Part shown: positions 35,620 through 63,902 of the stretch, piece after piece | Layout: every line of letters starts with the position of its first letter | Numbering within the stretch: position 1 is the first letter of the stretch | Source of the DNA: Sipunculus nudus | Lineage: Eukaryota; Annelida; Sipuncula; Golfingiida; Sipunculidae | NCBI GenBank assembly: GCA_026874595.1 | Contig: CM049322.1 | Span: forward strand, 46,311,340 to 46,375,339 | Direction: 5' to 3' | DNA length: 64,000 nt | Position numbers and translations under genes: made by a program | Notes under the pieces: generated by a model | The model's database searches: none | The model's input: the letters and a program-made list of their open reading frames with translations, nothing else | What the model was told of the DNA's origin: nothing

Positions 35620-35859
35620 TCATATTGCGGTATCCACAGCTGCAGTGCCTGTACTTTCCTCCTCATGAACGGGGTATTTAGCTTTGTCCCTAGTCTCCTC
35701 TTTCGATTTCCTCTGTTGTCCCCTCTCTTCTTCCGACTTCTTCGGTTGCCCCGTCTCTTCTCCCAAATCCCTAAGTTTCGCCGACTCTTCTTCCGACTTC
35801 CTTGATTGCTCCCTCTCCATTTTTTCCATGGCGTCGAAGTCTAAATCAGCGTAGACGAC
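35620..35859 (-). CDS. ITIM receptor, alternative or final tail exon
   Basis: On the minus strand the acceptor CACCTCAG is followed by a frame opening with VVYADLDF and closing at TGA (35622-35620), 79 residues. VVYADL fits the ITIM consensus (S/I/V/L-x-Y-x-x-L/V). The rest is very charged with recurring KSEEE and EET blocks, and the C-terminus DTAI could be a class I PDZ ligand. It begins in phase 0, which matches the donor AAG|GTCACA at 36313 (or AGG|GTGGAC slightly upstream). With the 36313 donor the full protein would be 390 residues. If unused, the gene ends in the previous exon at 36271. The splice link is inferred from frame only. Confidence 0.6.
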   Translation of the reverse strand, partial: VVYADLDFDAMEKMEREQSRKSEEESAKLRDLGEETGQPKKSEEERGQQRKSKEETRDKAKYPVHEEESTGTAAVDTAI

Positions 35860-36100
35860 CTGAGGTGACGATAAGAACAAAGGTTCACAAATTATGCCCA
35901 AGATATAAATATACATAAATGACCGATGCTGTAAAATTATAACACTACTAATCAGAACCTAACGGGCCGGGGTGGGGGGGGGGACTTTTTCATGGGTATA
36001 ATCACAGGTAATCAACATGTCCGTGTTGTCATTAAAGCACTTATATTTGTAACTGTCACTGATTTCCGCGGTGATTGCCTTGCAAACATTAAGCATTGTG

Positions 36101-36106
36101 TTTATT
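36101..36106 (-). terminator. Possible AATAAA for the short receptor isoform
   Basis: AATAAA on the minus strand about 165 nt past the TAG at 36271, in the right place for a transcript ending with the 36481-36271 exon. Confidence 0.4.
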
Positions 36107-36270
36107 ATGAAATGTAAAAAAAAAGAGTATAAAAAAGACTAGCACAAAGGGAGGTCAATACGACAGACGGCGTATTTGCCGCATAATCTTAAGAAAAGAG
36201 GGAATGTTAGGAGAGGGTTTTTTTTCAGAAATTAAATTGATGACAAGTATTAATGCAGATTTTTCGTGGA

Positions 36271-36481
36271 CTACAAGTTTTTATCAGGTGCCTGTGGATA
36301 AAATTCTGTGACCTTATCAAATCTGCCGTCCACCCTGTCCTTGACGTCACATGGTGTGTCCGTGTGATTGTCGTCTCGGTACAGGTCAGCGTAGTTGAGG
36401 GTCTGTGTAGTACCGGGAGTGTCAATACTGCATATGTCACACAATGGTTTTCTTGGTTGTTGTCGTCCAGTTCTTCTTCGT
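36271..36481 (-). CDS. ITIM receptor, cytoplasmic tail exon
   Basis: Acceptor GTCTTTAAG on the minus strand; the exon is entered in phase 2, completing an Arg codon (CG|A) with the membrane exon. It encodes a basic start (RRRTGRQQPRK), two cysteines, and TLNYADLYRDD, a textbook ITIM (L-N-Y-A-D-L). It then runs to EFYPQAPDKNL and a TAG at 36273-36271. An internal phase-0 donor at 36313 would replace the last residues by the 35859 exon. In vertebrates phosphorylated ITIMs recruit SHP-1/2 or SHIP; the same role here is inference. Confidence 0.7.
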
Positions 36482-36588
36482 CTTAAAGACATTTGACATT
36501 CTAATGCTCATGTTTATTGAAATATAAAAAGAAAATTCCTTCTTTCCTTCTTTCTCATGTTACTTAACCTTTCCTTTGAATAATAAGT

Positions 36589-36591
<3 letters not shown>

Positions 36592-36620
<29 letters not shown>

Positions 36621-36622
36621 TA
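36592..36622. repeat. (TAA)n microsatellite in a receptor intron
   Basis: About ten AAT units. Confidence 0.9.
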
Positions 36623-36789
36623 AAGAGTTATAACTATTAAGGGAAACATACGTTACTTTTTAAAAACTGAGGACAGAACTCTTTTATTACAGACAGCCTT
36701 TTCGCGTGAAAGATAATAATAATAAATTTAATATGCATATCACAAGGCATGTTATAAAAACAATGACGAATCCGAAATAGGATACACAC

Positions 36790-36871
36790 CGATAACAAAT
36801 GACTGCAACTGCTAGAATACATGATAGGGTCAAGGCCGTGAGAATCAGCGATATAACAGCCGTATGGTTAT
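36790..36871 (-). CDS. ITIM receptor, transmembrane exon
   Basis: An 82-nt exon between TGTTTTAG and CG|GTGTGT on the minus strand, phase 1 in and phase 2 out. It encodes DNHTAVISLILTALTLSCIL followed by AVAVICYR. This is one uninterrupted hydrophobic helix of about 22 residues ending in a basic residue, as expected for a type I membrane protein. The phases and position match the membrane exon of the plus-strand paralogue at 62959-63055. Confidence 0.75.
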
Positions 36872-37865
36872 CTAAAACATAACATGAAAATGATATTCAT
36901 ATTAAATTTGTTGAGGTAGCTCACCAACGTGCACTGCGTAAGCGTCTGTATATCAATGTTTAACTGAGGAGATCATGACCACTTTATTCTATACAACAAT
37001 TAAACTTTGAAAACAAATGTTGAACTAAATACACAACAGAAATACGAGAAGAGACGGGCCATGCACAGATATGCTTATAAATCCATTCGCTCTCATATCA
37101 TATATTTAAAAGAACAGACAATATAAGTTAAGATCCCTGGTCTGGGTACTTTATAAAGCTACTTTGATTTGGGGGGAGGGGGAGGGGGGGGGGGAGGGGT
37201 TGAGCAATTTTATATCATTTGCTTTATATTTTATTCACAACAAGATGCAATATACTAATTCCCATTGGCCATTTTAGTAACTGGTAAGGCACACCTTGCT
37301 TAACGCGTGTATTCCTAACATGATTGGGATCAAGTGTGATTCGCTGCATATGCAAATGGAATATAACTTTAGAATTTCAAACGCAAATGCGTCCATTAAT
37401 TACTAGATATAAATGTGAATGCAAGTGCATTTCTATAAGTGCAATAGCAATTACACAACACCAGTTATCTTAAATTCTTTGTAATCATATATTACTTATC
37501 CAGACTAGAAATGCTTGTATTCAATGGATGAGTGGTTGCGATAAGGCTTTTTATCAGTAAAAATATGTTTAAGCGACAGTATAATAATATTTAGTAAATA
37601 TTGGGACAAGACAAGTATGACAAAAGAAAACTCACATATTTTTAATCACTGGACTTTAGATGACTGCTCTTTATGTATGTATAAATGTTGTAATTTATAT
37701 TTTTATTCTTAAGCTGACAAATCAGTCTATATTTCGGTTTAAACAAATATTACACTATGAAACAAAATATAATATCACATCACCGTTAATAAAGAAACGG
37801 GTAGGACTTAAAGAGCAAGTTTCTATCAGTTTTAAATCAAGATGTTTCATGACTTAATCAAATCG

Positions 37866-37902
<37 letters not shown>

Positions 37903-38120
37903 ACTACTCAGGTAAATTTAGCACCTAATTATGAATGCATAATGAACCAAAATGCAGGTTTTATATAATATTATTAAGATCGGATTATCCATTTTCATAA
38001 ATACCCATGTACAGTTATTTTATTAAAATAGGAAAGAGAAAGGTAGCATATTGGATCAATATTTGCTCGTGCTTCTATACAGTATAACAAAAATATGTAT
38101 TAGAAGTGTCATAAGCATAC
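36872..38120 (-). other. Intron of the ITIM receptor gene
   Basis: GT-AG, phase 1. Contains a G/A-rich run at 37171-37200 and (TA)n at 37867-37900. No further exon recognised. Confidence 0.6.
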
Positions 38121-38174
38121 CTATCCCATTTTGCGCAATTCTCCCATTCTGGCTCGCTGTTCCATTCTTTGAAA
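38121..38174 (-). CDS. ITIM receptor, stalk exon
   Basis: A 54-nt exon, minus strand, acceptor CTTTTAAG and donor G|GTATGC, phase 1 at both ends. It encodes VSKNGTASQNGRIAQNGI, a polar N/G/S/T-rich linker with an N-glycosylation site (NGT). It corresponds in place, length and phase to the 57-nt stalk exon of the plus-strand gene (61441-61497). Such symmetric 1-1 exons can be skipped without breaking frame. Confidence 0.65.
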   Translation of the reverse strand, partial: FQRMEQRARMGELRKMG

Positions 38175-38331
38175 CTTAAAAGATATAAATAATTCAATGA
38201 TGAAATGTACAACAGTTCAAACCTGAAGACCTTACAAAATGGCAAGTCGAAAATAAGGGTATTGTCACCCAATTTGGAGTACACAATCTACAATTCCTAG
38301 TTTAAGTGTAAATGTATTTTGATATGCTTAC

Positions 38332-38889
38332 CGATTAATACCGCAACAAACCCACTATTCTCCTTAGGATCGCACCTGTAGTTAAACTGAAGTCCTTCAG
38401 TATGTTGCGTTGAACGCTTACCACATGTGATGTTTTCGACACTCATAAAGTTAACATTTGTACATTCAGTTATGTTAAAGTAAATCTCAGTACCTATGAT
38501 TGACGTTATATTTATCATGCATTCTGCATATCTTTCCTTCATATAGTCCTGGCTCACAAGTGCATACACTCCTGGGTACAATGTTAGCGACTCACTTGGA
38601 CATTCCTTATATCCAATTACTTCATTTACACAGGTGTATTTAACATTAATGTTATATCTTTTTTCGTACCAGAGAGGTTGATGCAATGAATATTCCTCCT
38701 TGATTTCATCGGCTGAAATATAGCATTCACTTACATTGCGGACCATGCATTTTTTATTTAGAAACCATTGGACACTGTTGCGTTCTTTTTCCGGGAGAGA
38801 GTCATATGCTACATCAGTTATGATGCTCTTCTTTTTATACAAACAAGACACTTCAAAAGGTTTCTCACGACTGAAGATCAACGACGAAA
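38332..38889 (-). CDS. ITIM receptor, ectodomain exon (SUEL-like and CUB-like)
   Basis: A 558-nt exon, minus strand, acceptor TATTACAG, donor G|GTAAGC, phases 1-1, 186 residues. Nine cysteines, eight of them matching the plus-strand paralogue at 59367-59924 in order and spacing. The N-terminal half (first Cys in EVSC; C..x5..C pair; KYTC) recalls the second half of a galactose-binding SUEL lectin domain (C....C then a K-L-x-V-x-Y-x-C strand). The C-terminal half (YALVSQDY, AEC.INITS..GTEIYF, LQFNYR, NSGFVAVL) follows CUB-domain spacing. At least four N-glycosylation sites (NVS, NIT three times). Domain names are inferred from pattern and need profile search; homology to the 59 kb gene is plain. 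Probably a cell-surface recognition receptor; ligand unknown. Confidence 0.85.
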
Positions 38890-39503
38890 CTGTAATAAGA
38901 GGGTTAACAGTGAACCCCTGAATATGGTGTGCTCTCATTAACAAATAAATATAACATACGACTTTCAAGCACTGAATTATGTTAATTGTTCACGTTTGTT
39001 TTATTAAATCAAAGGAATAACTGGATTTAAGGGGCGTAAAGATGCACCGGTGCACCGATATATCGCAATAAGTGAATATCGTGTCGATGTCGTCAGCTAC
39101 TCCTGTACCATCAGATTGAAAATATACAAGAATCCAACAAATATTCTGTTCTTTTATAATAGCTAGCGGAACACCTAATGTAAAGCAAAACATCACTGGT
39201 CAAAATTTGGGTTTCTATCATTTACAATCTTGCGAATAGATGCAACAATAGAAACATGACGAGTAATGACCTGAACTCTGATACTACTTGTGTGTTTTGT
39301 ATCGTGAAGTATCGGGATGCATGTCATATCTAGAGATAATGTATCGTTACCGCCGTAAATTTAAGAAACCAAACCTGTGATACACCAGTGGTAGTTTTTA
39401 CGAGGTGAAAATAGGTCATTCAATAATAATAATAAATAAAGACACAACCGTGCATGTGGAAGCGAAATTCACATTTTTTTAAACAGTACACACGCCGACT
39501 TAC
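38890..39503 (-). other. First intron of the ITIM receptor gene
   Basis: GT-AG intron, phase 1. From about 39020 it is shared with the duplicated block at 44981 onward. Confidence 0.65.
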
Positions 39504-40690
39504 CATGTTTTTCACACATGACGACAACTATGTACAAGGAAATTAGAACTGGAGTCCTCTGATGGCATCTCATTGTGGGGCGGACTGGTTCTGGTCGCTA
39601 CCATTTGGTAACTCAGATCCGTTAAATATAAAAGGGGAGAGCCGAGGGGTATGTGTCCCTGTGACTCAGGCTGGTTATACCGATATGATAATAACATTGC
39701 TGAAAATTATTGTTATCAAGTAATTGTGTACACATCTACATCACGATTATGATACATGAAGCTGTTTTACACAACTGGGTAAACATATCCAAAGTATACC
39801 AATAAACGCTCTCGTGTTGCACACAGCATCGACAGCATAATATTGCGAGCCTAACATGAAAAAGTTCATATAAGGCATTAATCCAGCAACAGTGTAATTA
39901 CGGTGCATACTGTAACGTTCTTAAACCATAATGCCAAAGTAGAGCCTATAGTAGCAAAAAAAAAAAAAAAAAAAAAGAAAAAAGAAAAAGAAAAAAATGG
40001 TTTTTGTGCATATTCTACATACACATCTACCTTTCCCAGAATAAACACATCTGAAAGAAAATAAGATTCAGAGGGATCATATATCATTTAATGTGCTAGT
40101 TCTCCGCTATTTCGGACTGATGAATGTTTTACCTTGACATGAAAAGAATCTGTGACAGTACTTGTAATCACACTCATTCAGAGGAGGAAATATATTTTCT
40201 ATTATAACCTACAAGTACCACTTATAATAAACAAGGACAGCCATTTAATACATATGTGTAATTTCGGACAGCAACCAATCTGTTCGAAAATATAACTCGT
40301 TATAACGTGGTTTACTGGTAAACTGCATATTTGTTTAATTTCTTACTCTATATTAACATTTCCCCTCAGAATTATGTGACAGAAAGCCAAATGACGCTGC
40401 TTACCATAAAGACGGATAATCTTTGGTGTTATTCTTCACTGGAATCCAATGTCAGTTAACCAGCTCTGTATATATACCACTGACTGGTTACAAGAAATAA
40501 TAGGACAACTTAGACAACGGGTTATGTATTCTCTTTTCTGTTATATTTTGATTCATAACCGTATCATTTTTAAAGCCCAGATACAAAAATAATTAAAAAC
40601 CCGTCTGTGACATGTTTGCAAAATATAAGCGTAGTATTTTTAGTAGCCACATTCATTGAATTTGTATTTACAAATATGGCAAATAAAATT
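39020..40690. repeat. Segmental duplication, copy A (promoter and first exon)
   Basis: Matches 44981-46440 and, after an extra 1.4 kb there, 47845-48030. Shared landmarks are TTTAAGGGGCGTAAAGATGC at the left edge, the whole coding exon 1, TATAAAAGGGGAGAG-type sequence at about 39627, CAAATGACGCTGCTTACCAT at 40390, AATCCAATGTCAGTT at 40444, and GTGACATGTTTGCAAAATAT at 40608. The block contains 5' flank, exon 1 and part of intron 1 of the ITIM receptor. Confidence 0.85.
39504..39573 (-). CDS. ITIM receptor, first coding exon (signal peptide)
   Basis: ATG at 39573 on the minus strand, 23 codons plus one base to donor CATG|GTAAGT. It encodes a basic N-terminus (MRCHQRT) followed by a hydrophobic run PVLISLYIVVVMC, a typical signal peptide. 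It ends in phase 1, fitting the 38889 acceptor. The exon and 1.1 kb upstream are duplicated around 45478-45547, where the same frame, donor and start are kept. Any untranslated first exon was not found. Confidence 0.75.
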
Positions 40691-43600
40691 TATGCTGGGT
40701 CTTTAATTTAAAGAAACTTCATATATTCATATATTAGCAGTCATATCTGACCCTCTGGCACCTAGCTTCACAATACACTGTGACTGTGCTATGGACGTCA
40801 GTTTTTATAAACAGCTTCTCCGTAATTGAGGAACATCTAATGTACTATTTTTGGTAAGTTGAGTAACTAGGGTTTTTGTGCATGTTGGTCAAGAAATGTG
40901 GTGCAGGAAAAAGATCAGCATTTCATTTCTCGATAAGTAATTCTTAATAGTATTTATAAAGCCCCAATTCTCTGACTTAATGCGCACACTTACCCATTGA
41001 CAAAGCACAGTTTCTCGGAAACCTAATCCGTGTACAAGCCCCACTTCCTTTCTCATCTTCTCTTCGTGTTTACCCATTTTAATTCATTAAAAAAATATGA
41101 TACATATGAATGACCATCAACTTGCCGAAAGAGACGTTTTTCAATTTGTTTTAAATGATACAAGAGAAGACGGAAGCTAGACAAATCTGAAGATACTGAG
41201 ACCGAGGTCAGCACGAAGATTGATTCTGTTTTTATGATGAGGATGCTAAGTAACAGGCATGACAATGTTCTGTACTTTCTTGGTCAAATTAGCCTGCACT
41301 GTTTGTTATGTAATGTGAGGTTAACATATGAAAGGTAAGGTTGGTATTGTATTGTTGTCATTTGGAATACAGCAAAACAAAATCATTAAGTGTTATTTAT
41401 AACCGATAGGTCTTGCTGTTGTGATTATATTATCTACAACTAATAGAGTGTTTCTTTTTCAAAAAAGAAAAACCTGAATAAAATACACAGAAATACATGA
41501 ATATGAAAAAATATATAAAAAAATCGTACATTTTCTGTTCGACAGAAAATTGTATTTTGTAAGGCGTAATGGGTAACATCACAGCTATGTTTAAAAGACT
41601 GTGTCAGCACATGGTAAACCTAAGCAGGAGGAAGATGCCTTCAGGGTTAAAGAATACATTGGTCCAAAATCTGATGTACATGTAACCTGAAAATTATATA
41701 TATATATATAAAATATTATATATAAACAAAACAGAAAACGGAGTAAATGGATTAAATCCTCCTGTGCAACCCTTTTCATTAATTGTTTTAAAATAAAAAA
41801 TCCTGTCAATCCAAGAAAATATTTTATAAATATTTAAATACAGTAGACTCCGCCTTTCGTCTTCTCCGGTCGATCTCCCCCTCTTTGTGTTCTAGCCTCA
41901 TGCCTTACATGGAACATATGAGCACACAAACATAGGGTTCACTTTCAGATTGCACATGTTTTCTTTCTGGAAAGTATTCTGCATGAATTCATTTTCATTA
42001 TAAACAATCGTAGCTTTACAGGTTGTTATATGGTTCTGTGAAACGTTGTGTATCATTTTTTTTTGCATATGGCAGCAGCGGATTCAGGATATCGGAAAAG
42101 TTTGGATCCTACCCAGGAGGATTAATGACAAGGCGACTCTCTTAAAATCGCATCGATCTTTGGTTTGTTATGACAAAACGATGGAGGATACCTATATTTG
42201 TTTCGCTGCTACCAAGACAATTATGGGTAAAATTCATCAAAGTGAAATGAGGATATGGAGACCGCCGCATGTACTAACACAGAATACAAGAAACAGAAAA
42301 GGCAGTTGGCTTGGCTTTAAGGGCACTTTGTTATTGCCTTTACTTTCATATTTACAGTTTTTCATCGACCAGAATCAATGTGTCAAGTATTTTTCTTCCT
42401 TTATTATTGAACGAGCCACACCATCATCTTTATTATATAAGGACCTGGCTTAATTTGTTGCCAGCCTTATTATTCAGTAGTTTCCATATTAGCCACCAGG
42501 TTCCGCTGTATATTGTATACTGTAACACAATAGTCCCTTTATTTACATACATTTTCCATAGGAATTCGGCACTTCATTCAACACTGCTTTCATTTGAGAA
42601 TGCCAGTAGATATTTCATATTTTGATTTAAAAAGCCATCCGATATAACCTTGTCTTTATCCTGAAGTCAGTTTAAGAGTCAGTTTCCTGATAATATTCCA
42701 TCATGTTTTTCCTGAGAAGAAATCTTTTGGTTATTACAAAATTACAAAGTTATAATCTTTAAAACTACACCTAAAGTTCAATCAAGATATTTGCTATCAC
42801 TATATTAATGCCCTGTTTAATGTACAGTGCACTCGTATTAGGTTGAGTTGAAATATTAGAAATATAAATAACAAATTGCAAAATGTACAAATGGAATTCG
42901 ATGCGCCTTTGATATTACAGTTGACACTGACCATTGGCTCCACGAGTGTCAGAATGTGATCTTATTTTTTCAAGACTCAGATCATCACGTCAAGAAGATT
43001 TGAATATGAAATTCCAATCGACAAACGTAGAGGAAGTCTTGCAATTATTAGAGGTTGAATTGTGATCGTCTTTCTATCCACAAATTTTTTCTCTCCTTTT
43101 ACCCTTTTTATTAAAATGTGGCATGCCACAATAATTTTAGACTATATCTTAAACACGTTTATATGATAAGTAAGAACAGTTGACCTTCATAATCTTTCAT
43201 TGCGATAAAATATAATAATGCAATGTTTGGTAAGACAATGTTATTCACTGGATATACATTGCGGATAAATTGCAGATATTTGACACATATTTGACGCATA
43301 TCAAATACTCTACATATCGCCGTATTTCAAGGATGCTCGATGGTTAAATTAACCCAGTTTATAGTGTTATTTAAACTGTATTGCACCAAATCATGTCGGA
43401 TTCCCAGGATGTTATAAAGTCAAGCCACAATAGCAGAGGTATGAAAGACTAGGAGTAATGGGCGCTTGAGGGATAATATTTTGCAGGGAATTAACATAAT
43501 ATACAACATTCATTTATGCATGTAAAATTTGCGAATATTTCGATCTTGTATTTGGTGTTTTTTATTTGAATTTATAAAATATCCTCGGAATATATCCTTA

Positions 43601-44945: not shown

Positions 44946-44980
44946 TTAGGTTTCGTTTCCGTGCGATAACTTTCCTAAAT

Positions 44981-47900
44981 GGCTGGATTTAAGGGGCGTA
45001 AAGATGCACCGGTACACCGAGATATCACGATACAAAGAGATGTAGTTAGAGATCTCTGTATCCTTAAGTTCACAAAATATGGCCACCCAACAAAAAGTCT
45101 GACATTTTATGAAAGTCAGTGGTCCAGCGTGTAAAGCGAAACATCACTGATCAAAATCAGTTAACTGGCATTTTGTTATATATTTTGCACCAATACTGCA
45201 AAAAATGCAACAACATTGCATGAAGAGTAATGACCTGAACTCTGATGCTACTTGTATGTATGGAACCGTGCCTCATACCGTAAGTGATCTATCTTGATAC
45301 ATATCATATCTAGCGATTATGTATCGTTACAGCCCTACATTTAAGAAATCAAACCTCTGATACACCTGTGGTGAATTTTGTAGTGAAAATAGGTAGTTTA
45401 TTAAAAACAAAACAACAACTCTACATGTCAAAGCGAAATACAACACATTCTTCGAAACAGTACACACGCCGACTTACCATGTTTTTCACACATGACGATG
45501 ACTCTGTACAAGCAAATTAGAACCGGCGTCCTCTGACGGCACCTCATTGTGGGGCTGACTGGTTCTGGTCGCTCCCTGTCGGTAACCCATATCCGTTACA
45601 TATAAAAGGGAGAGTCGGAGGTATGTGCCCCTATGACCCAGGCTCGTTATACAGATATGATAATAACATTGCTGAAAATTTTTGTTATCAAGAAATTGTG
45701 TACAAATCAACATCAAGAGTATAATAGATACAACTGTTTTATAAAACTGGGTAAACATATCCAACGTATACCAGTTAACGCTCCCGCGCAGCACACAGCA
45801 TCAACAACATAATATTGCTAACCAAACATGAAAAGGTTGATACATGCCACTTAGCCAGCAACAGTGTGATTACGGGGTATACAGTAACGTTGGTATAAAC
45901 TAATACCAGCACAGAGCCAAAATAGCCAAAAAAAGAATGCTTATTATGCATATTCTAATACAAATCTACTTTTCCCGTAATAAACACATATTAAAACAAA
46001 TAAGATTCAGAGGTGTTCTGTTACATTTAATGTGCTAGTCTGACCAATCTTTCGTTATTTTGGACAGATGATTATGAATATGTGAATATTCTCACTCTCT
46101 CAAGAAGTAATGTTTCCCTTGATATAAAAAGAGTCTGTGGCACAGAGACATATTATTTTTTTCACAACCTACAAGTACCATATCACATAATAAACCTGAC
46201 CAGCCACTTAATAAATATGTGTACTCTCGGACAGCAACCAATCTGTTCGAAAATATAACTCGTTAGAACTAAGTTTAGAGGTAAACTGCATATTTGTTGA
46301 ATTTCTTAGTTCATATATACAGGTATCCTCCGAATTATGTGACAGAAAGCCAAATGACGACGCTTACCATAAAGACGGATTAACTTTATGTGGTGTTATA
46401 CTTCACTAGAATCCAATGTCAGTTTACCAGCTCTGTACATTGTATTATAGTTGATCGTTGTATCATTTAAATTAAACAGACATTGTTGTTTTATCTCCAA
46501 GGGTTTCACCACACAACGGAACCCCTACCGAGTCGTCTATTCTACACAAAATCTACGTTGTTAAGTTTCAAAGCAGCTTGCGTGGAATTCAGTTTTAAAG
46601 CATATTCCGGGATGACTTTAGGTCACCTACAAAAATAATATTTCTGCCATTAACTGGTCTAGTATGTTGCAAACACCGGCACAATTTATTTCTAACCGAA
46701 TCTGCAATGATGACACAACCTATTTTGTTTCCTAAAATGTATTTTTCTGTCATGACAATATTGTTCATAGTGATAATAGCTGACTAGGTCTATGGGAATG
46801 ACTGACTTACATTTAGCATATTATAAATCAATGTTTCTCTTCCTTAATTATTACGTCAATTCCCTGCCATCATTCTGTTTGTTTGACGAGTTGAAGCAGA
46901 AACGCTTCTTTCATCAGATAAGGAGTAATATTACTTCTAATCTCTTAATTTTGTTAGATCAATTTCAATTATGATTATAATATCTTTAAACTACGATATT
47001 TGTGTTTTTCTGGTGCCCTTAAATGTTTACATATGTGTGTCGAGCAAATGTTCATTGATAGCGATTGGGGTAACTCTATGCACACGAGGTCCCAGGAGTT
47101 TGAACATCCTCCTTAGCTGGACTTCTCATAGAAATATGTCTTATATATGTGTTCCTATCTGGCGCTTATGTAATAGCTTAATAAACTGTAGACAAGTGTA
47201 GGAGGGTATGAAAAAACCCCCAAAAACAACTGGAAGATCGATAAAAAGTTAGTCACTAATTGTACAAGCTTGAATCATGTATACAGATGCTTACCCGCTG
47301 TGCTGTTAGTTGGATTTTACCGTGGAGGAGGATTGCGATTACATGAATATGAGATTAGAGTATGAGATTAGAATCGATGGGTTCTATAAAGAAACTCGAC
47401 CGGAATAATTATATCTGTATATATAGATATAGATATAAGTATAGCTTGGTGAGAGGACATGTTTTATTTTGATAATTTGGTACTATAGCCAATTTTGCAA
47501 GTAAATTTTACCACTATTTACATATTTTACATATTTTAAAAATGTTAAATTATTGCCCTTGCATGTTTTAAATGAACAATAGGCATTGAAAGTACACTTG
47601 CAACAGATATGATTTAATGAAAATGTATAAATTCCTCTCTTTACGGGAAGAAACATTTTTCTTCGAAAGCTCGGGTTTACATTCTTGATTATTAAGAGAA
47701 TAAATGAGATAATGCTATAATAATCTGGTTACACAGTTTAATTTACATTTGGGTGAGGTAAGTTTCATATTGTTGAACTAGTTAACGCATACGTTCTGAA
47801 GTGTGTTAGAAGAGTATCCTTTTCTTCTACCCGTCACAGTCGTCCTGGTACCACTGACCGGTTACAGGAAATTAGAGGACAACTTAGACAATTCTCTTTG

Positions 47901-49922: not shown

Positions 49923-49926
<4 letters not shown>

Positions 49927-50077: not shown

Positions 50078-51687
50078 ATATAGTTCTGGTGTTCAAATGT
50101 GACTTTAATTTCTTCCGTTGTGCCTTTAAGATGTCGGAACGAATATACGATGATAAATTTTTTTGGATGATAAGTCTACAAACAATTGAGGTGTCCATTA
50201 TATATACTTGAATAAACTTGTATATTTCGTATTTTCAGATTTCCTCTAAATAAGAGTTTATAATTCACATGGTCATTACCTCTCTCGATAACGTTTCTTT
50301 CTTTAAAAAAATCTAAGCAAGTCTTAAATGATTAAAGAATTTATCATCATATGAAATTATGAATATGATAAAATATCATTTTCGATACATTCACGTTAAA
50401 TCGTTCACTTTGCCGTATTCCATAAAGATGTGTACCTGCAATATACAATGAAACACTTGAACAATTAATGAACACAATACCACTTAAAATGCAAAGCCAT
50501 AAACATTTTCAAACTCTGTTTTTTTAATTCAGTTGTTTGTTGTTTTATGGCTAATATAAACCGTTAAATGTCACACAATAATAAAAAATAATCAGAAGAT
50601 CATGCATGTATTTATACATATATATATATATATTTACATTTATATGTATATAAACATATAATATACAAAATAAACATTTTTGACGCTTGATCTAAAATTG
50701 TTTCATTATAAGAATACGTTATTGGTCCTACGCGAAGAGCTAATATAATAAAGAACCAGTGTATTGGTTTTTGAATCAGATTCATAATTACGAAGCGGGA
50801 TTCCAAATACCATGCATGTGTATGCATACATGACATGCACTAATCACATTAGTGAAAAAATACACAAATTACATACATAATGATAGAAAATAGCACATAT
50901 CAAACACACCTGCAAAGTATTAAAAACTAATAAATTACAAAAAAAAAAAGAATTTTACACGTTACATTATGCATTTATTTATATATTCCATTATGCATAT
51001 ATGTATTTTAAAGTGGTCACGAATATCCGTGTTACGAATGAGTATTAATATAAGTAATATACCAGCTTTCTTCGGAAAATACACTCGCTGATATAAATGT
51101 AGCATTGAGCAATAAACTATACTAAACATATAAGACCAAGCTTAAATAAAATAATCTTACCCGGTATAGAGGACTATGCGTGAGGTATGTCTGTAACTAT
51201 ACATAGAACCATCGAACATTAGATATCTATGATCATTATTAACAAGAAAGAATCCTTTTTCTAATATGAGCTTTTCATAATATCAATCAGTAACGAAAGT
51301 CTACATTTTGAAGTGTAACTCCTAAAAATAAATATACATTGGGCAATTTGATAAAGTTACTTACATATGCGGCATCATTTAAATTTAAATGATATTTGTG
51401 ATTATTTATTATAAAATAAAACATTATCCCCTGTATATTCAAACTCACGCCCTAAGGAGTCCTGTGGTTTTCTAGAATACAGCTCTGGTTAAGCATAACG
51501 TGCTAATGACTGATCCTGCCCGATCATTTAAAATGTTGAATCTGAAAAACTGTAGAATCCTTAATGATGAAGTTAATTATATTCGTGAGAGAATCAAACT
51601 GAGTGAAGTCATTTTTGCACAGTATTACATTCATCCTTTTGGGGATTACAGAAATATTATAATTCTTAATTATTGTAAACTGGTTAC
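50078..51687. other. AT-rich spacer; downstream flank of the pseudogene
   Basis: No further receptor exons (stalk, membrane, tail) were recognised below the pseudogene ectodomain. Confidence 0.4.
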
Positions 51688-52240
51688 CTTCAGCCAGGAA
51701 CAGGAACCCAGCATTCTTGCAGGGAAATGCAGTTTACGAGAAATTCCTTGAAGAATATTTTGGAAAGTTACATATTTCTGTTTTCATTTTTTCACAAACT
51801 CGAGATTCACGTAGTTAATCATAATGAACGCCACTTCTGTACCCGGCTCTAAAATGATCCTGAAATCGCACTCTCTTTCGTACTCTGTGCTGTAATCTTC
51901 ACTCAGCATTGCATACTGCTTATTCTTATGGAAGGTCAAAGTTTCCTGGCGGCATCCTGAATGACCAAATATTTGGTCAACACAAGTGAGATTAACAGAG
52001 AGCTTCCATATGTTTAATGTATTATTGCATTTCGTCTTTCTTAAATTGATTCTGAATATCTGAATTCTTTTCGATTTATGAAAAATGTGCTATCGAAATT
52101 ACATTTAGCGTTTAGAAACTAAAGTTCTTTCTCGAGAGGTTTGCTCAGGTAATCATTTGTAACGTGTGTATTCAACATTTTTCGTGGGTCTTCACATGCC
52201 GCGGATAAACTTCCGTACCGATGTAAAGAGTGTGATGAAC
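51688..52240 (-). pseudogene. Decayed ectodomain exon, inverted copy of the 59 kb receptor
   Basis: The reverse complement aligns along its whole length with 59367-59924, most bases matching, between a kept acceptor (ATTTCAG) and donor (GAAG|GTAACC). Lesions: a Glu codon became TAG (52121-52119), small indels break the frame in the middle, a conserved Cys became Tyr (51813-51811), and a TAA lies near the end (51736-51734). It cannot make the ectodomain. Confidence 0.85.
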
Positions 52241-52443
52241 CTGAAATAATAGAGATAGCTTACATATTATACAGATTTTAACTATGAAATTTAAACCTAA
52301 TGATTTTACATGGCCATTGTAGTCCTATGGCTAGATGAAACGTTCATTTTGTGGACATGTCATGTTATTTCTCTTAATAATGTACTCTAGCTGATTGATT
52401 GTGATGTTGCTTCTATTCAAATACATTAAATGCGTTTCCTTAC
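52241..52443 (-). other. Intron of the pseudogene
   Basis: About 200 bp, GT-AG borders intact, similar in size to the 232-bp first intron of the intact gene. Confidence 0.6.
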
Positions 52444-52498
52444 CTTCTTGTAAATACATACATAAAAAACATATCCCTCTCCATGAATTGTACCACAT
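52444..52498 (-). pseudogene. Signal-peptide exon of the inverted pseudogene
   Basis: ATG at 52498 (minus), MWYNSWRGICFLCMYLQE, donor GAAG|GTAAGG. Parallels MWCNSWILVFCLYLHE of the intact gene at 59086. Homology continues upstream (CTGCAGTCAGCCGTTGT near 52560), so the duplication included some 5' flank. This exon alone is intact. Confidence 0.8.
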
Positions 52499-54240
52499 AC
52501 TGACAATTAAACTTCTAACAGTAGCTGTCAAAAATTTATGCCACAACGGCTGACTGCAGCTTTATCAATAAAACTGGATACACTGCCCATAACCCCTTAT
52601 AGTTCCTTGCTATGATAAACATCAAGGACATGAGTCGCACGGCCTAATATAATCATTTAGTATAGTACAATTAATATAGTGCTAATCGTTGGTGATTTAC
52701 GAGATTAACATGGTACAAAATAGTTAATTGCCTATATAATTTATAAAAATATTTAATTGAAAGTCTTTTTCTTGACTGGTGTTAAGGACAGATCACAGCT
52801 ATCATTCTGATGCATGGCAGGCAAATTTAATATGAAAACAGGAGCTGCAAAAATTCCCTTTTAAGCCCAATTTAGGTCACTGTTGCCTATATTTTAAGCT
52901 AGAGCATAAATATTGTGTCAAATTAAGCTGAACTTCACGGCCAGTGAGCTATTTCATTTATAAATATATTTCACCCTTTAAACAGTATTAAACAAATAGC
53001 CCTCAGGTCTGAGTGGAGAAATGGAGAAAATAGATGTAACACTTCATCATTTGGTCACAATCAGCTGTGTAAGGACCAGGATTGTGGTAAGAGTACTATG
53101 TAAGAGTAATAGTGCTAGAATATTACAGGTTTTCAAAGTAATAGTAATAGTAATAGGCAAGAAATTTCAACCCGTGATAGTAATACTAATAGCAATAGTA
53201 ATAGGACCCCAAGTAAAAGAATAAAAGTGATTACTTTTACAACTACAACATTTGACTTAAGTAGGTCAGAGATGGAGTGTTTGTTTCATTATACTGAAAC
53301 AGTAAAGGACTTAAGTTGTAGTGTGATTAAAATCATGATAAATGCTGTCATGATCCAGTGGTCACTGGGCATGAGGTAAAGGCTTTGGCTTGAGGTGATA
53401 ACCAGTGAGATAAATCATGGACTTGTTTGTAGATTCATTAACTAGGCTTGGTCAATGTACATTGCAGCAGTGCTTGGTCAGTTTACCCACTATGTGGAGC
53501 AAGTTATTGTCACAGGAGGCTAGATAATAGTGCTGCTGCAGTGCCTTTGATGTTTGGGTACTTCAGAAGGAGATATTGTATAGTCGTAACCTCTGGTGAG
53601 TTAATTAGTGGGGCTACAGACAGTGAAAAAGGCCCTGTGTGTATTCACAAGTATTGCAGTTTAAGTACTAGGGGCTGAACAAGTAAGAAACGAATCAGAA
53701 ATACTTACCTTATCAAGTGTATTAACTTTATACAAACTACTAATAAAAAATGGCACAAGGTTATCATAAGTTTGAAGAAATACACAAAACATCGAGACAA
53801 TATACAATAATAATATGAAGGAAATAGATTTAATTACTTATTACATTGAGCAACCTAAAATAAAATGAACAATTTAAATTTATTAACCATGAAAATTGCA
53901 ATGTCTCAAGCAATTGACAAATTATACAACATAATTTAGTCTAAATTCATTTGACCTGTTTTGAAGAAAAGCCTTAAGATTTTTCTCTTTTAAGGCAGTG
54001 ATATTGTATATATATGGTTTAGGTCAACTTGAATGTTCTTGTATGCATATTTAAATTGAGTCTTTTCAGTCAATGGCTGTTCACATTTATTGTGACGGAA
54101 ATTATCGAAGAACAAACGACATATTATTTACTGTTTTCACTTACTTAGTTGGTAAAGTAAACAATTATTATAATTAAAACTGTCAGCTAGACCATGCTAA
54201 TGCAACATATTTGTAGTATCAACATATATATATGAATCAT
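52499..54240. other. Intergenic with (AGTAAT)n-like repeats
   Basis: Imperfect AGTAAT hexamers at 53090-53210. Rest AT-rich, no gene. Confidence 0.45.
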
Positions 54241-55413: not shown

Positions 55414-55452
<39 letters not shown>

Positions 55453-56147: not shown

Positions 56148-56193
<46 letters not shown>

Positions 56194-56802: not shown

Positions 56803-56869
<67 letters not shown>

Positions 56870-58860
56870 AAACCAACTGCTTCTGCTAGATAGAGGTTCT
56901 AGAGTAAACAGACCTACGGGAGAAGAACATTACAAAAACCTACAAAACGTGAGCCAGACCGTCATCCACTCTATCGAGCAAGAACATAGCATGTTACAGA
57001 GAGATTGATGCTAGCTGATAGAATTATCAAAACAACTAAACGAGAGACATCCTTAACAAGTCCACAAGCGAAATATGACAAAAATGCTACATGCCCGCCC
57101 ATAAACCCATCGAAATCCGAGGTCTGGAAGATTAGTAAGCAGCTCTTAGACAACAAAGTCTTAGAACGTTCAGGTCTAAATCAGTGGAAGTATACGGCAG
57201 CTGTACTATCATGGATCAACGATATCACACAAAGAAGTAATATTCCTTCATCACCTTTGATGTTATAGATTCCTATCCATCAATTACGGCCAACCTGTTG
57301 AATGCCGCACTCGACCTTGCCTTGAAAAAAGTAGACATTATTCCAGAAGAACGGAAAATTATCGTACATGTAAAAAAATTCCTGCCAATACTAATCGAAG
57401 AAACCATGGGGGAAAAGGGCTACATCTGAATTATTCGATATCACAATTGGCAGTTAAGACGGCACCGAAACCTCTGAACCAGTCGGTATATTCCTACTGC
57501 ACGAAATCACAAAAAAGCACAACCAAAATATAGGGACGATGGCCTTGGAGTAATAAAATATCCCCCCAAACAGAAAACATAAAAAAAAATCGGTATAGTA
57601 TCAACGGCCATAACCCGAGAATAACAATTTCAGCAAACAAGGAAAATGTTCAAGTTCTTCGACGTCACATGACATCTCTCGACTGGAAAATACGCACCGT
57701 TCAACAAGCCCAACAACACACTACTATATGCACCTCGCAAATCCAAATACCCACCGAACATCCCTGATTACATTAACAGGAGACTAAGAGAAATATCATA
57801 TGAGGAAGAAACTAAAATATGCAACACCCTCATACAAGGAAGCTCTCCAAAAAGTGGCTCCAAGACCAACTGAAATTCACACCAAAAACAGACAGACACA
57901 GCAGACAAAAGAAAAACGACATAAAAAACCATATGGTCCAATCCACCATACAGTAAAAATGTCGCAACCAACATCGACCGGATTTTTTTTAAAATGCTTG
58001 ACGAAGAATTTCTCCCAAACTATGTACTACACAAGCTGTTCAACCGAAATACAATCAAAATCAGCTACAGCTGCATGACCAACCTAAAACAAAACATTGA
58101 TGGGCACAATGAAACTATCATCTCCAAGAAGAGCAAAACAGCACTAGCCAAAAAATGCAACTGTAGAAATCTGCAGACTGCCCTATAGCCGGACAATGTC
58201 TAACAGAGTAAGTGATATATCAGGGATCAGGTACACCACTGTAGACAACAACTTTAAAGCAAACCAGACATACGTCGGCTCAACACAGATCCCCTTTAAA
58301 ACTAGATGTTATAACCACAAAACCTCGTCTAGGAATGCAGCCAGCAAACAAAGCACAGAACTTAGTCAATTTATCTGGGAAGTAAAAGATAGCAACGTGC
58401 GCCACAACATATGGGAAATTCCTCAAACGTGCAAAACCCTACTCTCCGGCAACAAACAGATGTAATTTGTGCTTCTGGGAGAAGTACTTCATCAAATGCC
58501 AAACCCAATTTGCAACTCTAAACAAACGAAATGAATTAGTGACGGCATGTAAAAACGCACATAAAAATTCCAACTGCGGGACCTATAACAACAACACATA
58601 ACAGGCGAAAACGAACATATCAGCAACGAAGCACACTATTATTCTTGGGTTTCCATGTACACAGCTACCAGCACTCGGACCAGTGACAATACCAGATCCG
58701 GCCCTCAACAAAGATAAATGGCACTACACAGCTGACCCTGACACCATACACAAAGACCTCTACAACTGATATTCACATCAACGAGAACTATAAGGCTACA
58801 ACATCTGAAGAGTGTCACACGCTCTGAGCGTTTGCTACGAAACTGATTAGTCACGAAAAG
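56412..58860 (+). mobile_element. Decayed Penelope-like retroelement (RT plus GIY-YIG)
   Basis: Broken frames along the plus strand give, in order: a short 5' leader from ATG 56624 (MANSSVNFNPSTP) ending at a TCAG|GTAAGT donor-like site near 56697; RT N-terminal motifs at 57005-57265 (NATCPPINPSKSEV, KISKQLLDN, GLNQWKYT); FDVIDSYPSIT near 57260; YRDDGLGV near 57550, keeping the catalytic DD; then SYSCMTNL and CNCRN near 58060-58170; and a GIY-YIG endonuclease core at 58200-58460 (TYVGSTQIPFKTRCYNHK, STELSQFIWE). Several stops and frameshifts separate these, so it is inactive. Penelope-like elements insert by target-primed reverse transcription and may retain introns. (TA)n tracts lie at 56150-56190 and 56807-56867. 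Confidence 0.9.
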
Positions 58861-58892
58861 ACTGAAGAAAAACGTGTTTATTTCTTTCCATT

Positions 58893-58941
<49 letters not shown>

Positions 58942-59085
58942 GTGAATCACATCCTTGATGTTTATCAAAGCAGGGCGTCATATGGGCCTATGAATTGTGT
59001 TTCCAGCATTACAAATAACAGTCGGCTGCAGTCAGCGGTTGTAGCATTATTATTCACAGTGACCCATAGTAGGTTCACAGTCAGT
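58861..59085. other. 5' flank of the plus-strand receptor, with (TA)n
   Basis: About 20 TA units at 58897-58937. The part from about 59020 is homologous to the upstream flank of the inverted pseudogene, so it probably holds the proximal promoter or 5' UTR. Confidence 0.5.
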
Positions 59086-59134
59086 ATGTGGTGCAATTCA
59101 TGGATATTGGTTTTCTGTCTTTATCTACATGAAG
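59086..59134 (+). CDS. Plus-strand receptor, first coding exon (signal peptide)
   Basis: ATG at 59086, MWCNSWILVFCLYLHE, donor GAAG|GTAAGG, phase 1 out. The start is chosen because the pseudogene copy keeps this ATG and frame but has stops upstream. In this copy the frame is open further up (to 58942). The hydrophobic run ILVFCLYL is short for a signal peptide. With the following exons it yields 396 residues. Confidence 0.65.
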
Positions 59135-59366
59135 GTAAGGTAATGTACTCAAATCTATTTAATATAAACAGAATCAAAATGTATCCCTTTGGCAAGAGTA
59201 ACCAAGTATGTAAGATTGGAATAAACATACAAAATACAAAGTATATCAATTTATGTGTCAACACACTGAACGTTTCAGTAAAAAATTAATGATGTAAAAC
59301 AATTTCACTATGGTACACTATGGTGTTTTTAACATTATAACATGCCAACTGTCCCTTATATTCCAG
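59135..59366 (+). other. First intron of the plus-strand receptor
   Basis: 232 bp, GT-AG, phase 1. Confidence 0.7.
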
Positions 59367-59924
59367 GTTCATCACTTTTCCTACATCGGTACGGAAGTTT
59401 CTCCGCGGCATGTGAAGATCCACGAAAAATTGTGATTACAAACGTTACAAACGATAACGTGAGCAAACCTCTTGAGAAAGAACTTGAGTTTCTAAACTTC
59501 AAATGTAATTTCGATAGCAAATGTTTAATTGATCGAAATGATATTCAGAATCAATTTAAGGAAGACGAAATAAATTGGTACAATAACAAATGGAAACTCT
59601 CCGTAAATCTCACTTGTGTTGACCAAATCTTTGGTCATTCAGGATGCCCTGAAGACACTTTGACCTTTCATTTGAATAAGCAGTATGCAATCTTGAGTGA
59701 GGAATACATTGTCGACACAGAGTACAAAAGAGCCTGCGATTTCAGGATTACTTTTGAGACGGGTACAGAAGTGGAGTTCATTTTGATAAACTGTGTAAAT
59801 GTGGAATTTGGTGAAAAAATGAAAACAGAAATATGTGACTTTCCAAAATATATCAGGTCTTCAATGAATTTCTCCTACACTGCATCTCCAGGCAAGGATG
59901 CTGGGTTCCTGCTCTTGGCTGAAG
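59367..59924 (+). CDS. Plus-strand receptor, ectodomain exon (SUEL-like and CUB-like)
   Basis: 558 nt between ATATTCCAG and GAAG|GTAATT, phases 1-1, the same length as the ectodomain exon of the minus-strand gene. Eight cysteines. First half: AACEDPRKIVITNVT, FKC...SKC, WKLSVNLTC, which fits the spacing of a diverged SUEL/galactose-binding lectin. Second half: YAILSEEY, RACDFRITFETGTEVEFIL, SMNFSYTAS, DAGFLLLAE, which fits CUB. Three N-glycosylation sites (NVT, NLT, NFS). No typical SUEL or CUB signature is complete, so both names are inference. A secreted-side recognition domain anchored by the later membrane exon is well supported. Confidence 0.85.
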
Positions 59925-61440
59925 GTAATTAATTTGCAATAATTCAAAGTTATGACATCAATTTCCGACAGGGTTATTGGCAGTAATGCCAAAGGATACT
60001 TTAATAAACTGTATCCTCTAGAGATTATTATTAACTTAATAATTAATGAATTAAGAAGCTCAAATTTCATATTTCAAATAAACGTTTAAATCTTCCTTTT
60101 AGGCAAGTTTAGAGGATCAGTTTATATGACTTTATGCGCGACCAGTTTTGTGATAATGTAAAATCAAAGGAATCATGAATTTGGCTATCTTGGCTAAACT
60201 GTTCACGGTAAATATCCACTCAGATTGACTCCTCTGCAGGCGTCTATCACCGACAAATGGGTGCAGGTTTGAGGGTTACTCCACTTTATGAGCCAGTCAT
60301 GGGGATAGTTACACACAGAGTTGCTGTTGACACAAACATAAGAAAATAAGAAAATGTAAGCATGTGAAAAGAGACCTGTCACCCAGTCTGATACGAAAAT
60401 TCCGGTAATGTGTATGCTTAAGAATTATACTAGGCAACATGTAATATGCATAATAATTATACTAGGCAACATGTAATAATCATAATAATTAAACTGGGCA
60501 ACATGCAATATGCATAATAATTATACTAGGCAACATATAAAATGCAAAATACAAACCATAAAAATGCCAAGGCGCAGTTCAGCCAAGGGAGAAATTATTA
60601 GGTACTCTTGTATGTGTATATACAATGAGGGTACTGTGAGAGTCTTACTTTTGTATGTTATCGTTCCCTAATTCAGCGTTATGTCCGTAAAAGGTTTGGG
60701 GTTACAGTCGATATCATGTTTATTTCTTAGCTACAGTTTATATTACAGGGGAGAGAAATAAGTGTCTTTTAAAATAAACACTATATCTCAATACTCATTA
60801 ATAAAAATGTTATTGCTATTCCATTCCTTTGGATTAGGTTCTATATTTAATTGCCATTAATTGTAATCAAGTCCAGGTTTCTAGGGGAATTTGAATTTTT
60901 GAACCAATAATATACATTTGTAATCAATATTTGCGGACAGATGGCCCTCTCAACATTGGATTTTCAGTCCTTGTTATATAAATGAGGGGGAAGGAATTTT
61001 TTTTGCATTTGAAGTATTTTTACCACAAATCTGGTGGCCGATTGATGTCCCATGGGTGACTGGTTTCGTCTTGCGTTTGTTGTCTGTTGCCATTTTTTTC
61101 TCAGTTTGTATGTTTATATTCAGGACTCCCTTTTTCCGTTCTTACCCCTACCTCGTTTTCGTACTGCGATAGTGTATGACATAAGGTCTATTATAGCTAG
61201 CTCATATCAATTGAACAATTACAACTAATACATATCTTATTACCATAGGGACATGGTAACGATACTTCTTATGTTTTTTGTTTCAAGCTAAAGTGGAACT
61301 TACAAATACAAACAGATTTTTTACTGATATTCTGATGGGTAGATAGATGGGGTGAAATTGTTATTATGATATTTTGTAATAATTCTAGATAAGTTGACAA
61401 TATCCCTTAAACTGGTAAAAAAATTTAACATCAGTTTCAG
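59925..61440 (+). other. Intron of the plus-strand receptor, with a 32-bp repeat
   Basis: GT-AG, phase 1. 60418-60545 holds about four units of ATAATTATACTAGGCAACAT with ATGTAATATGC. Confidence 0.65.
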
Positions 61441-61497
61441 TCATTCAGAATACAACCACAATAGGAAGCACAGGAAATGCGGGTGAAACAGCTGACG
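61441..61497 (+). CDS. Plus-strand receptor, stalk exon
   Basis: 57 nt, acceptor CAGTTTCAG, donor GACG|GTAAAC, phases 1-1. VIQNTTTIGSTGNAGETAD: Thr/Gly/Asn-rich linker with an NTT glycosylation site and likely O-glycosylation. Counterpart of 38121-38174. Confidence 0.65.
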
Positions 61498-62958
61498 GTA
61501 AACCAACTGGTCATCATATGGGTGCGTGCCTTGCATGATTATTTTTGAATAAAAAAAAAAGAAAACCTTTTCGACGAGCATGCGCACTCGGCGTAATGGT
61601 CGCGTTATGTACGCATTTTCCCAATGAAAAGAAGACATTTGCCAGTTACTTTGACTTGGTTCTTGATTTAAATTAGAGATTTTGTAATGTAACACATATG
61701 ACTTTTGACGATATAGCGGGACCAAATATTCGGTGTCTGTCGCCAACACATGTCACTTGTGTGATGGATAAACGCCTATTGCACCAAAATCTCTGTATGC
61801 TGAGGCTCGAACTACGAATATTAAAAAAAAATAAATAAATTATTAACTTATTCCTTTCATTCGTAACTAACGTCTGATGTTTTCTGCCTGAGATTCACTC
61901 TAAAAAAAATAACATAATATACCTGACACATCTAAACAATAAGCAATTGCACTCAAAGTTTTGATAAGGACGTACACGCATGCTGGCATGTCCTTTTCTG
62001 CTGGCAATGTAAACTGATGTGTGTGAACGAAAGCACGTAACATTCTAACAGCAAACGTAAGTAGTCATATGTTATAGACAAAATTTGTAAGATTGTTTTT
62101 TTTGTTTTAATAAAACTCTGTTTGAGAATTACCTTTCAGCTTGAAAATTATTTTCTTCTTTCAACAATCATTGTTGAGAAGTGTGTTATTGTTCTTTATC
62201 TTCATCAACCAAACAAATGGACCAACTAGCCAGATTTATATAAAATACGTTAGGGGGTTGTGCAATTAAACTGTGTAGCCATGCATAGTAAGTACACTAT
62301 AAACAACATAAAACGACACTGTAATCGAAACTTTTCCATGATGCCTATCATTTATTTTCATGGTTTGATAAAGTGCTCCATTGACGACTTTATTTAAATA
62401 CTTTTTTCTTCTTTTTCTGACTTCTCCATTCACATCATATGCCAATGTACTTCCTACTTTCTGTCGGTGTTTCCATCAACTCCAAAATGGTTTCAAGATC
62501 TTTCTGCTTGTTTGCAGTTGTTCATTCTTTTATTACTTCTGTATTGTTTATGTCATTTATTAATTGTTTAAAGACTTTTTTTACTGATTTTTAGGTCATC
62601 GAATCGCCATTTTAGATAAAAAATAATTGTTATAACAAACTGTAAGCAGTTATGAGAAAGGAAAAGTACATTTGTGTCATCTGAAAATATAAATATTAGT
62701 ACTTGGGTTTTAGGATGTTTAAGTGATGCACTTTAAAAAATAAAATAAAACCTCGCTTTCACTCGTGTTTTGTTTCGCTATTGATTTGGGTGTATTGATG
62801 ATTTTGCATCCACTTACCCAAAACATGATTTATCATTATTATTATGTTGATGATTCCAAATATTATCTCCTCAGATTCACACCCCACTAGGGGGACACTA
62901 TAAATAATGGTTTGTTGGTTTGATGCTCTAACCCTAATGTATCTTTGTTTGCATTTAG
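61498..62958 (+). other. Intron of the plus-strand receptor
   Basis: GT-AG, phase 1, AT-rich. No additional exon recognised. Confidence 0.6.
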
Positions 62959-63055
62959 CAAAACAATCTCGTGGTGGGATAGTGGCAGGAACACTTGTTG
63001 GAATCATACTTCTGTTCATTGTTCTATTGTTGGTTTGGCGGGTTCATTTAAAAAG
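62959..63055 (+). CDS. Plus-strand receptor, transmembrane exon
   Basis: 97 nt, acceptor GCATTTAG, donor AAAG|GTGAGT, phase 1 in and 2 out, as in the minus-strand gene. It encodes AKQSRGG, then IVAGTLVGIILLFIVLLLVW, then RVHLK: one membrane helix with a glycine-spaced start and basic stop-transfer residues. Confidence 0.8.
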
Positions 63056-63472
63056 GTGAGTATACAGAAAGTGTACGACTAATGTAACAATTAAGGAAAC
63101 TTGCAAGTTGAGATGAAAATAGTGCATAATTACTATTTAAACCATTCATTATCGTTATAATCATTCATCTTCTCAAAAACTGTTCAGCATTTTTTTTAAA
63201 TTAAATTTCGGTATTGATATAGCCAAAATAAAGATTTATGTGATGCAGTAGTAACTTGGAGGTATAGATAGGTTAACTAATAATTATTAGTAGAAGCATA
63301 ATTAAACTTTTATTCAACAAGCCATTATTTTGAGGTCATAACGTTGTAATAATATTAGATAATTATAATATGTTTACCATTATTAAATTTTTGAATGCTA
63401 TAATTGTATATGACAACGGTATATGTATAGTTATTTATATATAGCATATAAAGTTCAATCCATATTTCACAG
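63056..63472 (+). other. Last intron of the plus-strand receptor
   Basis: 417 bp, GT-AG, phase 2, AT-rich. Confidence 0.7.
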
Positions 63473-63902
63473 GAAACGGGTTTCCTCCGTTGGACATATT
63501 GAGAACAAGAGGGAATCAAAGGATAATGGTGATACTTCCATCGGTGTCTATAGTGACATAGATGATAAGGAGCCAAAGGAGCCATTTGACAAAGGGTCAG
63601 CCCATGCGGCAGATAAAACTGACAATGTGTACGCCGTCCCCGACAAAGGAAAGAAGAGGCTGTCACCCTGCTCTCCAGGACAACATCAACACGGGAACAC
63701 TCAAAAGGAAGGTCAAAGGTCAAAGTGCGCTGCAACAAAAGAGACAGAGGGCGGCAGTTCACCGGTAGAGGGCGCTTACGCAGTGGCAGAGTTAGGCGGA
63801 TTTACCGAACCTAAGAGTGTTCAGCATCGCTCTCAAGACAGCCCTGAGCCCACATACCAAACACTGGATCCAACCATTACAGGTTGGGGCAAACATGTTT
63901 AG
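63473..63902 (+). CDS. Plus-strand receptor, cytoplasmic tail exon
   Basis: Starts after ATTTCACAG, phase 2, ends at TAG 63900-63902. The tail has about 143 residues, hydrophilic, with four tyrosines in SH2-ligand-like settings: GVYSDIDD, NVYAVPDK, GAYAVAEL and PTYQTLDP. YAVP fits the YxxP type bound by Abl/Crk-like SH2 domains; YSDI and YQTL fit YxxI/L half-ITAM or ITIM-like sites, without the classical -2 aliphatic residue. It differs completely from the minus-strand gene's tail although the ectodomains are paralogous. Signalling output is inference. Confidence 0.8.

Follow-up and report, generated by a model that had tools for sequence, protein, structure and literature searches.

Genes A and B, which lie in a stretch of 64,000 nucleotides from Sipunculus nudus (contig CM049322.1, here C17, positions 46,311,340-46,375,339; the whole stretch is termed the window), probably belong to a clustered family of type I single-pass receptors that evolves by birth and death. 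Each receptor would consist of a signal-like exon, a SUEL-type lectin and a CUB domain encoded together in one exon, a stalk, a membrane helix and a tyrosine-containing tail of one of two classes, with signalling driven by ligand. One intact gene (A) carries one or two immunoreceptor tyrosine-based inhibitory motifs (ITIMs); the other three intact genes, B and its two paralogues outside the window, share a conserved tail with neither an ITIM nor an immunoreceptor tyrosine-based activation motif (ITAM). The window appears to hold one end of the multigene cluster, and this first part of our joint best explanation is completed by the mechanism proposed below. Gene structure, clustering, tail classes and the constraint on the ectodomain and tail of B are read from the DNA; the fold class comes from a predicted model.

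Gene organisation

Gene models were assembled by splicing exons by hand, using the window sequence and its open frames; the end of A exon 6 was taken from the open frame 35620..35958. Gene A runs on the minus strand from 39,573 to 35,620 and gene B on the plus strand from 59,086 to 63,902, so that the two are arranged head to head. The features are as follows.

39504-39573, minus strand: A exon 1, signal-peptide-like, a hydrophobic segment, ending in phase 1
38332-38889 (558 nt), minus strand: A exon 2, ectodomain of 186 residues with nine cysteines, predicted SUEL-type lectin and CUB by homology to the modelled B
38121-38174, minus strand: A exon 3, stalk, phase 1 to 1
36790-36871, minus strand: A exon 4, transmembrane segment, phase 1 to 2; a decayed relative lies at C17 ~46,566,800
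36313-36481, minus strand: A exon 5, tail with ITIM sequence LNYADL; stop at 36271 if the weak donor is unused
35620-35859, minus strand: A exon 6, tail with ITIM sequence VVYADL and stop codon; its acceptor and reading frame are found again in four decayed copies
44983-46440, minus strand: duplicated A upstream region and first exon (exon 45479-45547), 74% identical to 39,021-40,473
51659-52640, minus strand: broken copy of B exons 1-2 in inverted orientation, disrupted by frameshifts and a stop
59086-59134, plus strand: B exon 1, signal-peptide-like, spliced by hand, recurs in paralogues
59367-59924 (558 nt), plus strand: B exon 2, ectodomain of 186 residues; model residues 1-87 SUEL-type lectin, ~90-185 CUB
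61441-61497, plus strand: B exon 3, stalk, recurs in paralogues
62959-63055, plus strand: B exon 4, transmembrane segment, hydrophobic, recurs in paralogues
63473-63902, plus strand: B exon 5, tail with YSDI, YAVP, YAVA and YQTL, and stop; AATAAA at 63961

The two genes follow a common plan of short hydrophobic first exon, 558-nt ectodomain exon, stalk and membrane exon, followed by one tail exon in B and two in A, and the end phases at the first four introns (1,1,1,2) are identical. Splicing thus bears out the preliminary description of the locus, which had placed the genes on opposite strands with these shared phases, ectodomain exons of equal length with eight aligned cysteines, a short stalk exon and a membrane exon; A has an additional ninth cysteine. 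The pseudogene reported between them is real, an inverted and broken copy of the first two exons of B with 74.6% DNA identity to 58,940-59,953 (86% in exon 2, 55% in intron 1). The duplicated first exon is likewise real and derives from A, with no further A exon found beside it. Directly upstream of B, at ~57,000-58,600 on the plus strand, are pieces of a decayed retroelement with reverse-transcriptase-like and GIY-YIG-type (YVGSTQIPFKTRCYNHK) motifs, which by eye we take to be Penelope-like.

A clustered family

The genome searched comprises 1,426,538,692 bases in 153 contigs, and match counts for large families are lower bounds. With the B ectodomain as query at least 22 matches were obtained at an expectation value (E) of 0.001 or below, 21 of them at C17:46.350-46.707 Mb and one on a second contig, C8. 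Merged by hand these represent 17 places on C17 and one on C8, and in our own reading 10 of the 17 are interrupted (eight by stops or split frames, two by frame breaks). The C8 match (C8:46,192,543-46,192,986) is a distant ectodomain relative of 26% identity in an open frame of 248 residues. The A ectodomain gives at least 14 matches, among which the identity exceeds 32% for A itself only; A therefore stands alone while B-type members are many. The B tail has at least eight matches in the whole genome, all within the cluster and three without stops.

Two further complete B-type genes, at C17:46,630,231-46,636,052 and 46,705,727-46,710,983 (the second and third B-type genes), repeat the five-exon layout of B with order, orientation and phases unchanged. 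Their tails are respectively 72% and 49% identical to that of B. For the three B-type pairs the ratio of nonsynonymous to synonymous divergence (Nei-Gojobori) spans 0.31-0.45 for the ectodomain and 0.27-0.51 for the tail, and in each comparison no more than 4 of 1000 codon bootstraps reach 1. The recurrence of the five-exon set and the purifying selection support the B gene model independently of transcripts. The preliminary description had allowed that the tails might belong to unrelated genes; for B this is answered by a tail that recurs in two complete and constrained genes.

Synonymous divergence between B and the second gene is lower for the tail, at 0.34, than for the ectodomain, at 0.81 (the opposite order in 1 of 1000 bootstraps). 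There is no such difference between B and the third gene (524/1000) and a weak one between the two paralogues (128/1000). The alignment of B with the second gene continues through the intron around the membrane and tail exons, and most of the ectodomain-to-stalk intron cannot be aligned. This one pair gives a hint that the 3' half was exchanged between the two genes by gene conversion, which would explain the divergence.

Contiguous sequence was examined for C17:46,311,340-46,590,000 (279 kb) and two further stretches, with 46.590-46.628 and 46.640-46.704 Mb covered solely as short loci around matches. A strict scan for membrane exons, in which 11 genes were tested, recovered only that of B and missed the known exon of A. 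A looser scan recovered both, and found none at C17 ~46.417, 46.454, 46.473, 46.487, 46.499 and 46.524 Mb. When the hydrophobic stretches of nine copies were listed, a B-like membrane segment and a broken tail appeared behind the copy at ~46.554 Mb. On the basis of these scans just four genes are called complete, and the remaining copies are not proven dead.

Beside the cluster, at ~29,170-31,211 of the window, are open frames that by eye resemble exons of an SLC10-type (bile-acid/sodium) transporter.

Tyrosine-containing tails

The preliminary description considered the tails of A and B unrelated, and the best alignment between them is indeed not significant (E 1.9), with one short stretch alike (VYADLD in A, VYSDID in B). 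Both ITIM sequences that it listed for A, LNYADL and VVYADL, are present and fit the pattern [SIVL]xYxx[ILV] at the level of the motif; when the 136-residue tail was shuffled 20,000 times, a fraction of 0.0014 had two or more. Their occurrence in one product depends on the weak donor of exon 5. With the junction to exon 6 in use the protein would have two ITIMs; should exon 5 instead be read through to its own stop, it would have one.

The sequences YSDI, YAVP, YAVA and YQTL are, as described, all present in B exon 5. One of the two paralogues has YSDI, YAIP, YAVA and YQTL; the other has YSFI, YAVA and YQTL, and the tyrosine of YAVP is missing from it. Positions -2 to +3 around the four tyrosines of B are invariant across the three genes in 18 of 24 columns, against 41 of 120 elsewhere in the tail (P 0.0004), so the tyrosine motifs are better kept than the rest. 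The three tails, 139-145 residues long, contain no ITIM or ITAM and two isolated YxxI/L motifs each. None of the four intact genes has an ITAM (YxxI/L/V x6-12 YxxI/L/V) or an NPxY motif in its tail. In B and the third gene the membrane exon has positively charged residues at its ends only; that of the second gene has a glutamate near its outer end and a lysine near its inner end.

Decayed relatives of gene A

A genome search gave a single match to the exon encoding VVYADL at E ≤ 0.001 and no further match to that encoding LNYADL at E ≤ 0.1. A local search identified four decayed relatives of the VVYADL exon in which the acceptor AG is preserved and the alignment stays in frame, reading VIYADI, VI*ADI (a stop within the motif), VIYGDI and VISADL. 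A fifth A-type remnant, at C17 ~46,566,300-46,566,900, includes a membrane exon. In the 279 kb examined each of the five A-tail remnants follows a B-type tail or ectodomain at a distance of 1.6-7.8 kb and has the opposite orientation. It is as if A-type and B-type genes had been duplicated as neighbours, with all ITIM-type copies save one having since decayed. Three similar segments, at C17 ~46,381,000, 46,429,000 and 46,463,000, each present a broken piece of a B-type tail on the plus strand and, beyond it, a broken A-type tail exon on the minus strand, tail to tail.

The ectodomain

The A and B ectodomains are homologous, with 28-29% identity over 186 columns (E 7e-25 pairwise, 5e-20 by tblastn against the window). 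At this level of identity a shared ligand for the two cannot be assumed.

A first fold model, built on two sequences, was poor (predicted local distance difference test score, pLDDT, 49) and was not used for the fold search. In the model of the B ectodomain used with Foldseek, residues 1-87 match the SUEL-type lectin fold (Gal_Lectin, PF02140) and residues ~90-185 the CUB fold (PF00431). The predicted ectodomain is thus probably not a new fold but resembles a SUEL lectin joined to a CUB domain. The modelled lectin half shares its fold with the rhamnose-binding lectins CSL3 and SUL-I and the lectin domain of latrophilin, and the cysteine register agrees in the aligned part, although a CSL3 domain has eight cysteines and the lectin part of this family four. 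The second half of the model shares the fold of the CUB domains of neuropilin, MASP-1, C1r and spermadhesin and here has four cysteines, the first two being lost together in two of nine family members, which are close relatives. Similarity to these CUB domains is undetectable at the level of sequence.

Comparing profiles yielded nothing for the lectin half against CUB, where 20 of 60 controls reached the score, or for the CUB half against SUEL, where 56 of 60 did. An early guess of an immunoglobulin-like N-terminal domain, prompted by a C...W...C pattern, was replaced by the SUEL and CUB assignment and not taken up again after the fold search; there is no immunoglobulin match in Pfam to whole proteins or halves, and the fold list alone is not decisive on this point. 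A two-row profile of the ectodomain found no match in the PDB, and by sequence the ectodomain has there a single weak match, Plasmodium P113 (E 0.13), which covers residues 38-84 of B (window 59,480-59,620) and is also third in the Foldseek list. Relatives were sought in viral contigs; none of five pattern matches was confirmed.

Proposed mechanism

For phosphorylation, SH2-domain partners, inhibition, cell type and ligand we infer the following scheme. The lectin-CUB head would bind a surface or soluble ligand, after which a Src-family kinase would phosphorylate the tail. Phosphorylated ITIMs of A, whether one or two, might recruit an SH2-domain phosphatase and damp signalling in the same cell. 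The B tail, with two YxxI/L motifs and one YxxP, may dock other SH2-domain proteins, drive endocytosis through YxxI/L, or both.

Several observations weigh against a family of lectin-CUB receptors with two tail classes. By crude scoring the donor joining A exons 5 and 6 is weak (-1.1, with the other eight donors at 1.4 to 8.1). Profile and structure searches of the ectodomain, advised in the preliminary description, gave divided results: the structural comparison yielded the SUEL and CUB resemblance just described, but no Pfam profile matched. Gal_Lectin gave none at E 10 to whole proteins or halves, and CUB was matched neither by Pfam nor by a small neuropilin profile. YGR and DPC are the sugar-site motifs of SUEL domains, and both are absent from all nine family members.

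Alternative explanations

The strongest competitor, quite plausible in our judgement if short of probable, holds that A and the B-type genes represent two paralogous subfamilies of long standing, whose ligands differ and whose jobs are independent of each other, A being inhibitory or adhesive and the B type endocytic or adaptor-docking. Their likeness to paired receptors would then reflect descent and clustering. The divergence of A favours this, since it is 20-30% identical to eight other aligned members that are mutually 33-86% identical, as does the imbalance of one intact A-type gene to three of B type. The B-type motifs are also compatible: YSDI and YQTL fit YxxPhi, which we take to be an endocytosis motif, and two of the three B-type tails have a sequence (YAVP or YAIP) that fits YxxP, presumably an SH2-binding site. 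The position of the A-tail remnants, opposite B-type parts in five places as if co-duplicated, is harder to reconcile with independent histories.

We regard as unlikely a phagocytic or scavenger role after the manner of CED-1/Draper/MEGF10, with engulfment signalled by the B tail and A as the brake. A lectin-type head would suit such a role, as would several single YxxI/L and YxxP motifs dispersed along the tail in place of an ITAM, but Pfam finds no EGF repeat and all four tails lack NPxY. That the gene models are artefacts, with tails from other genes or the loci dead, is very improbable: the interrupted places on C17 and the weak A donor lend it something, but for B five exons recurring in order, phase and orientation in two genes, with ectodomain and tail under purifying selection, already speak against it.

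Relation to paired receptors and other known systems

The preliminary description took the locus for an invertebrate counterpart of the vertebrate paired receptors. In the portion of the literature drawn on here (PMC3533184) these are defined by significant conservation of the ectodomains, an inhibitory member with an ITIM alongside an activating one, a small gene cluster confined to one chromosome and overlapping immune-cell expression, the activating partner having a short tail, a positive charge in the membrane and an ITAM adaptor. Part of this comparison stands. The receptors are homologous, A provides an ITIM member at the level of the motif, and with 21 of 22 ectodomain matches in one stretch of C17 the cluster is real. 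Conservation of the ectodomains is borderline, as A and B are clearly homologous yet only distantly alike; DCIR and DCAR, by the same partial source (PMC3533184), are 91% identical, against 28% here. The activating features are absent from the three B-type genes, which have long tails without an ITAM, and the membrane core of B is uncharged. The description of the tails as 'opposing' is therefore not supported in that form. With neither ITIM nor ITAM in the tails and charges only at the ends of the B membrane exon, to call B 'activating' is a guess. We do not count the locus among the paired receptors but file it as a variant of the clustered receptors with tyrosine tails.

A bolder version may be put forward tentatively, though we find it doubtful: an independently evolved paired-receptor counterpart built on a SUEL-lectin-CUB head, in which the A/B unit was repeatedly duplicated, ITIM and non-inhibitory members recognise related self or microbial ligands, ITIM members are quickly lost and B-type genes trade tail exons with one another.

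No receptor combining a SUEL or rhamnose-binding lectin, a CUB domain and an ITIM was found in the open-licence literature, among the matches listed. Among molluscs, two surface receptors have a link with inhibition or with an ITAM. When oyster CgSiglec-1, a Siglec homologue, was blocked, apoptosis and phagocytosis were enhanced; in the part of that paper considered, ITIMs are given for mammalian Siglecs and not stated for CgSiglec-1 (PMC5877582). Oyster CgIgIT2 has an ITAM in its tail, according to a portion of the text (PMC11999971). Both have immunoglobulin heads, and in those parts of the two papers no mixed-tail cluster is described.

The vertebrate KIR, LILR/PIR, PILR, DCIR/DCAR and SIRP families are likewise clustered, with related ectodomains, different tails and one ITIM member. 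They differ in having immunoglobulin or C-type lectin heads and a short-tailed, charged activating partner, in place of the predicted SUEL-CUB head, the B tail of ~140 residues and the uncharged B core seen here. The nearest published invertebrate case that we found, as far as the source was drawn on, is that of the fester co-receptors (FcoR) of Botryllus schlosseri, clustered type I proteins that carry an ITIM, a hemITAM or a lone Y-x-x-I/L/V according to the member (PMC12065747). These allorecognition receptors, with 53 loci of which some are polymorphic, have immunoglobulin and sushi ectodomains (PMC12065747, in part), and so differ from the present family in the head. Clusters that share a type of head and mix tyrosine tails are thus already known from the vertebrate immunoglobulin and C-type lectin families and from the immunoglobulin/sushi family of Botryllus. 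If the SUEL-lectin-CUB version is true, it would offer an invertebrate system for testing inhibitory signalling, and the arrangement would be one that arises repeatedly from unrelated heads.

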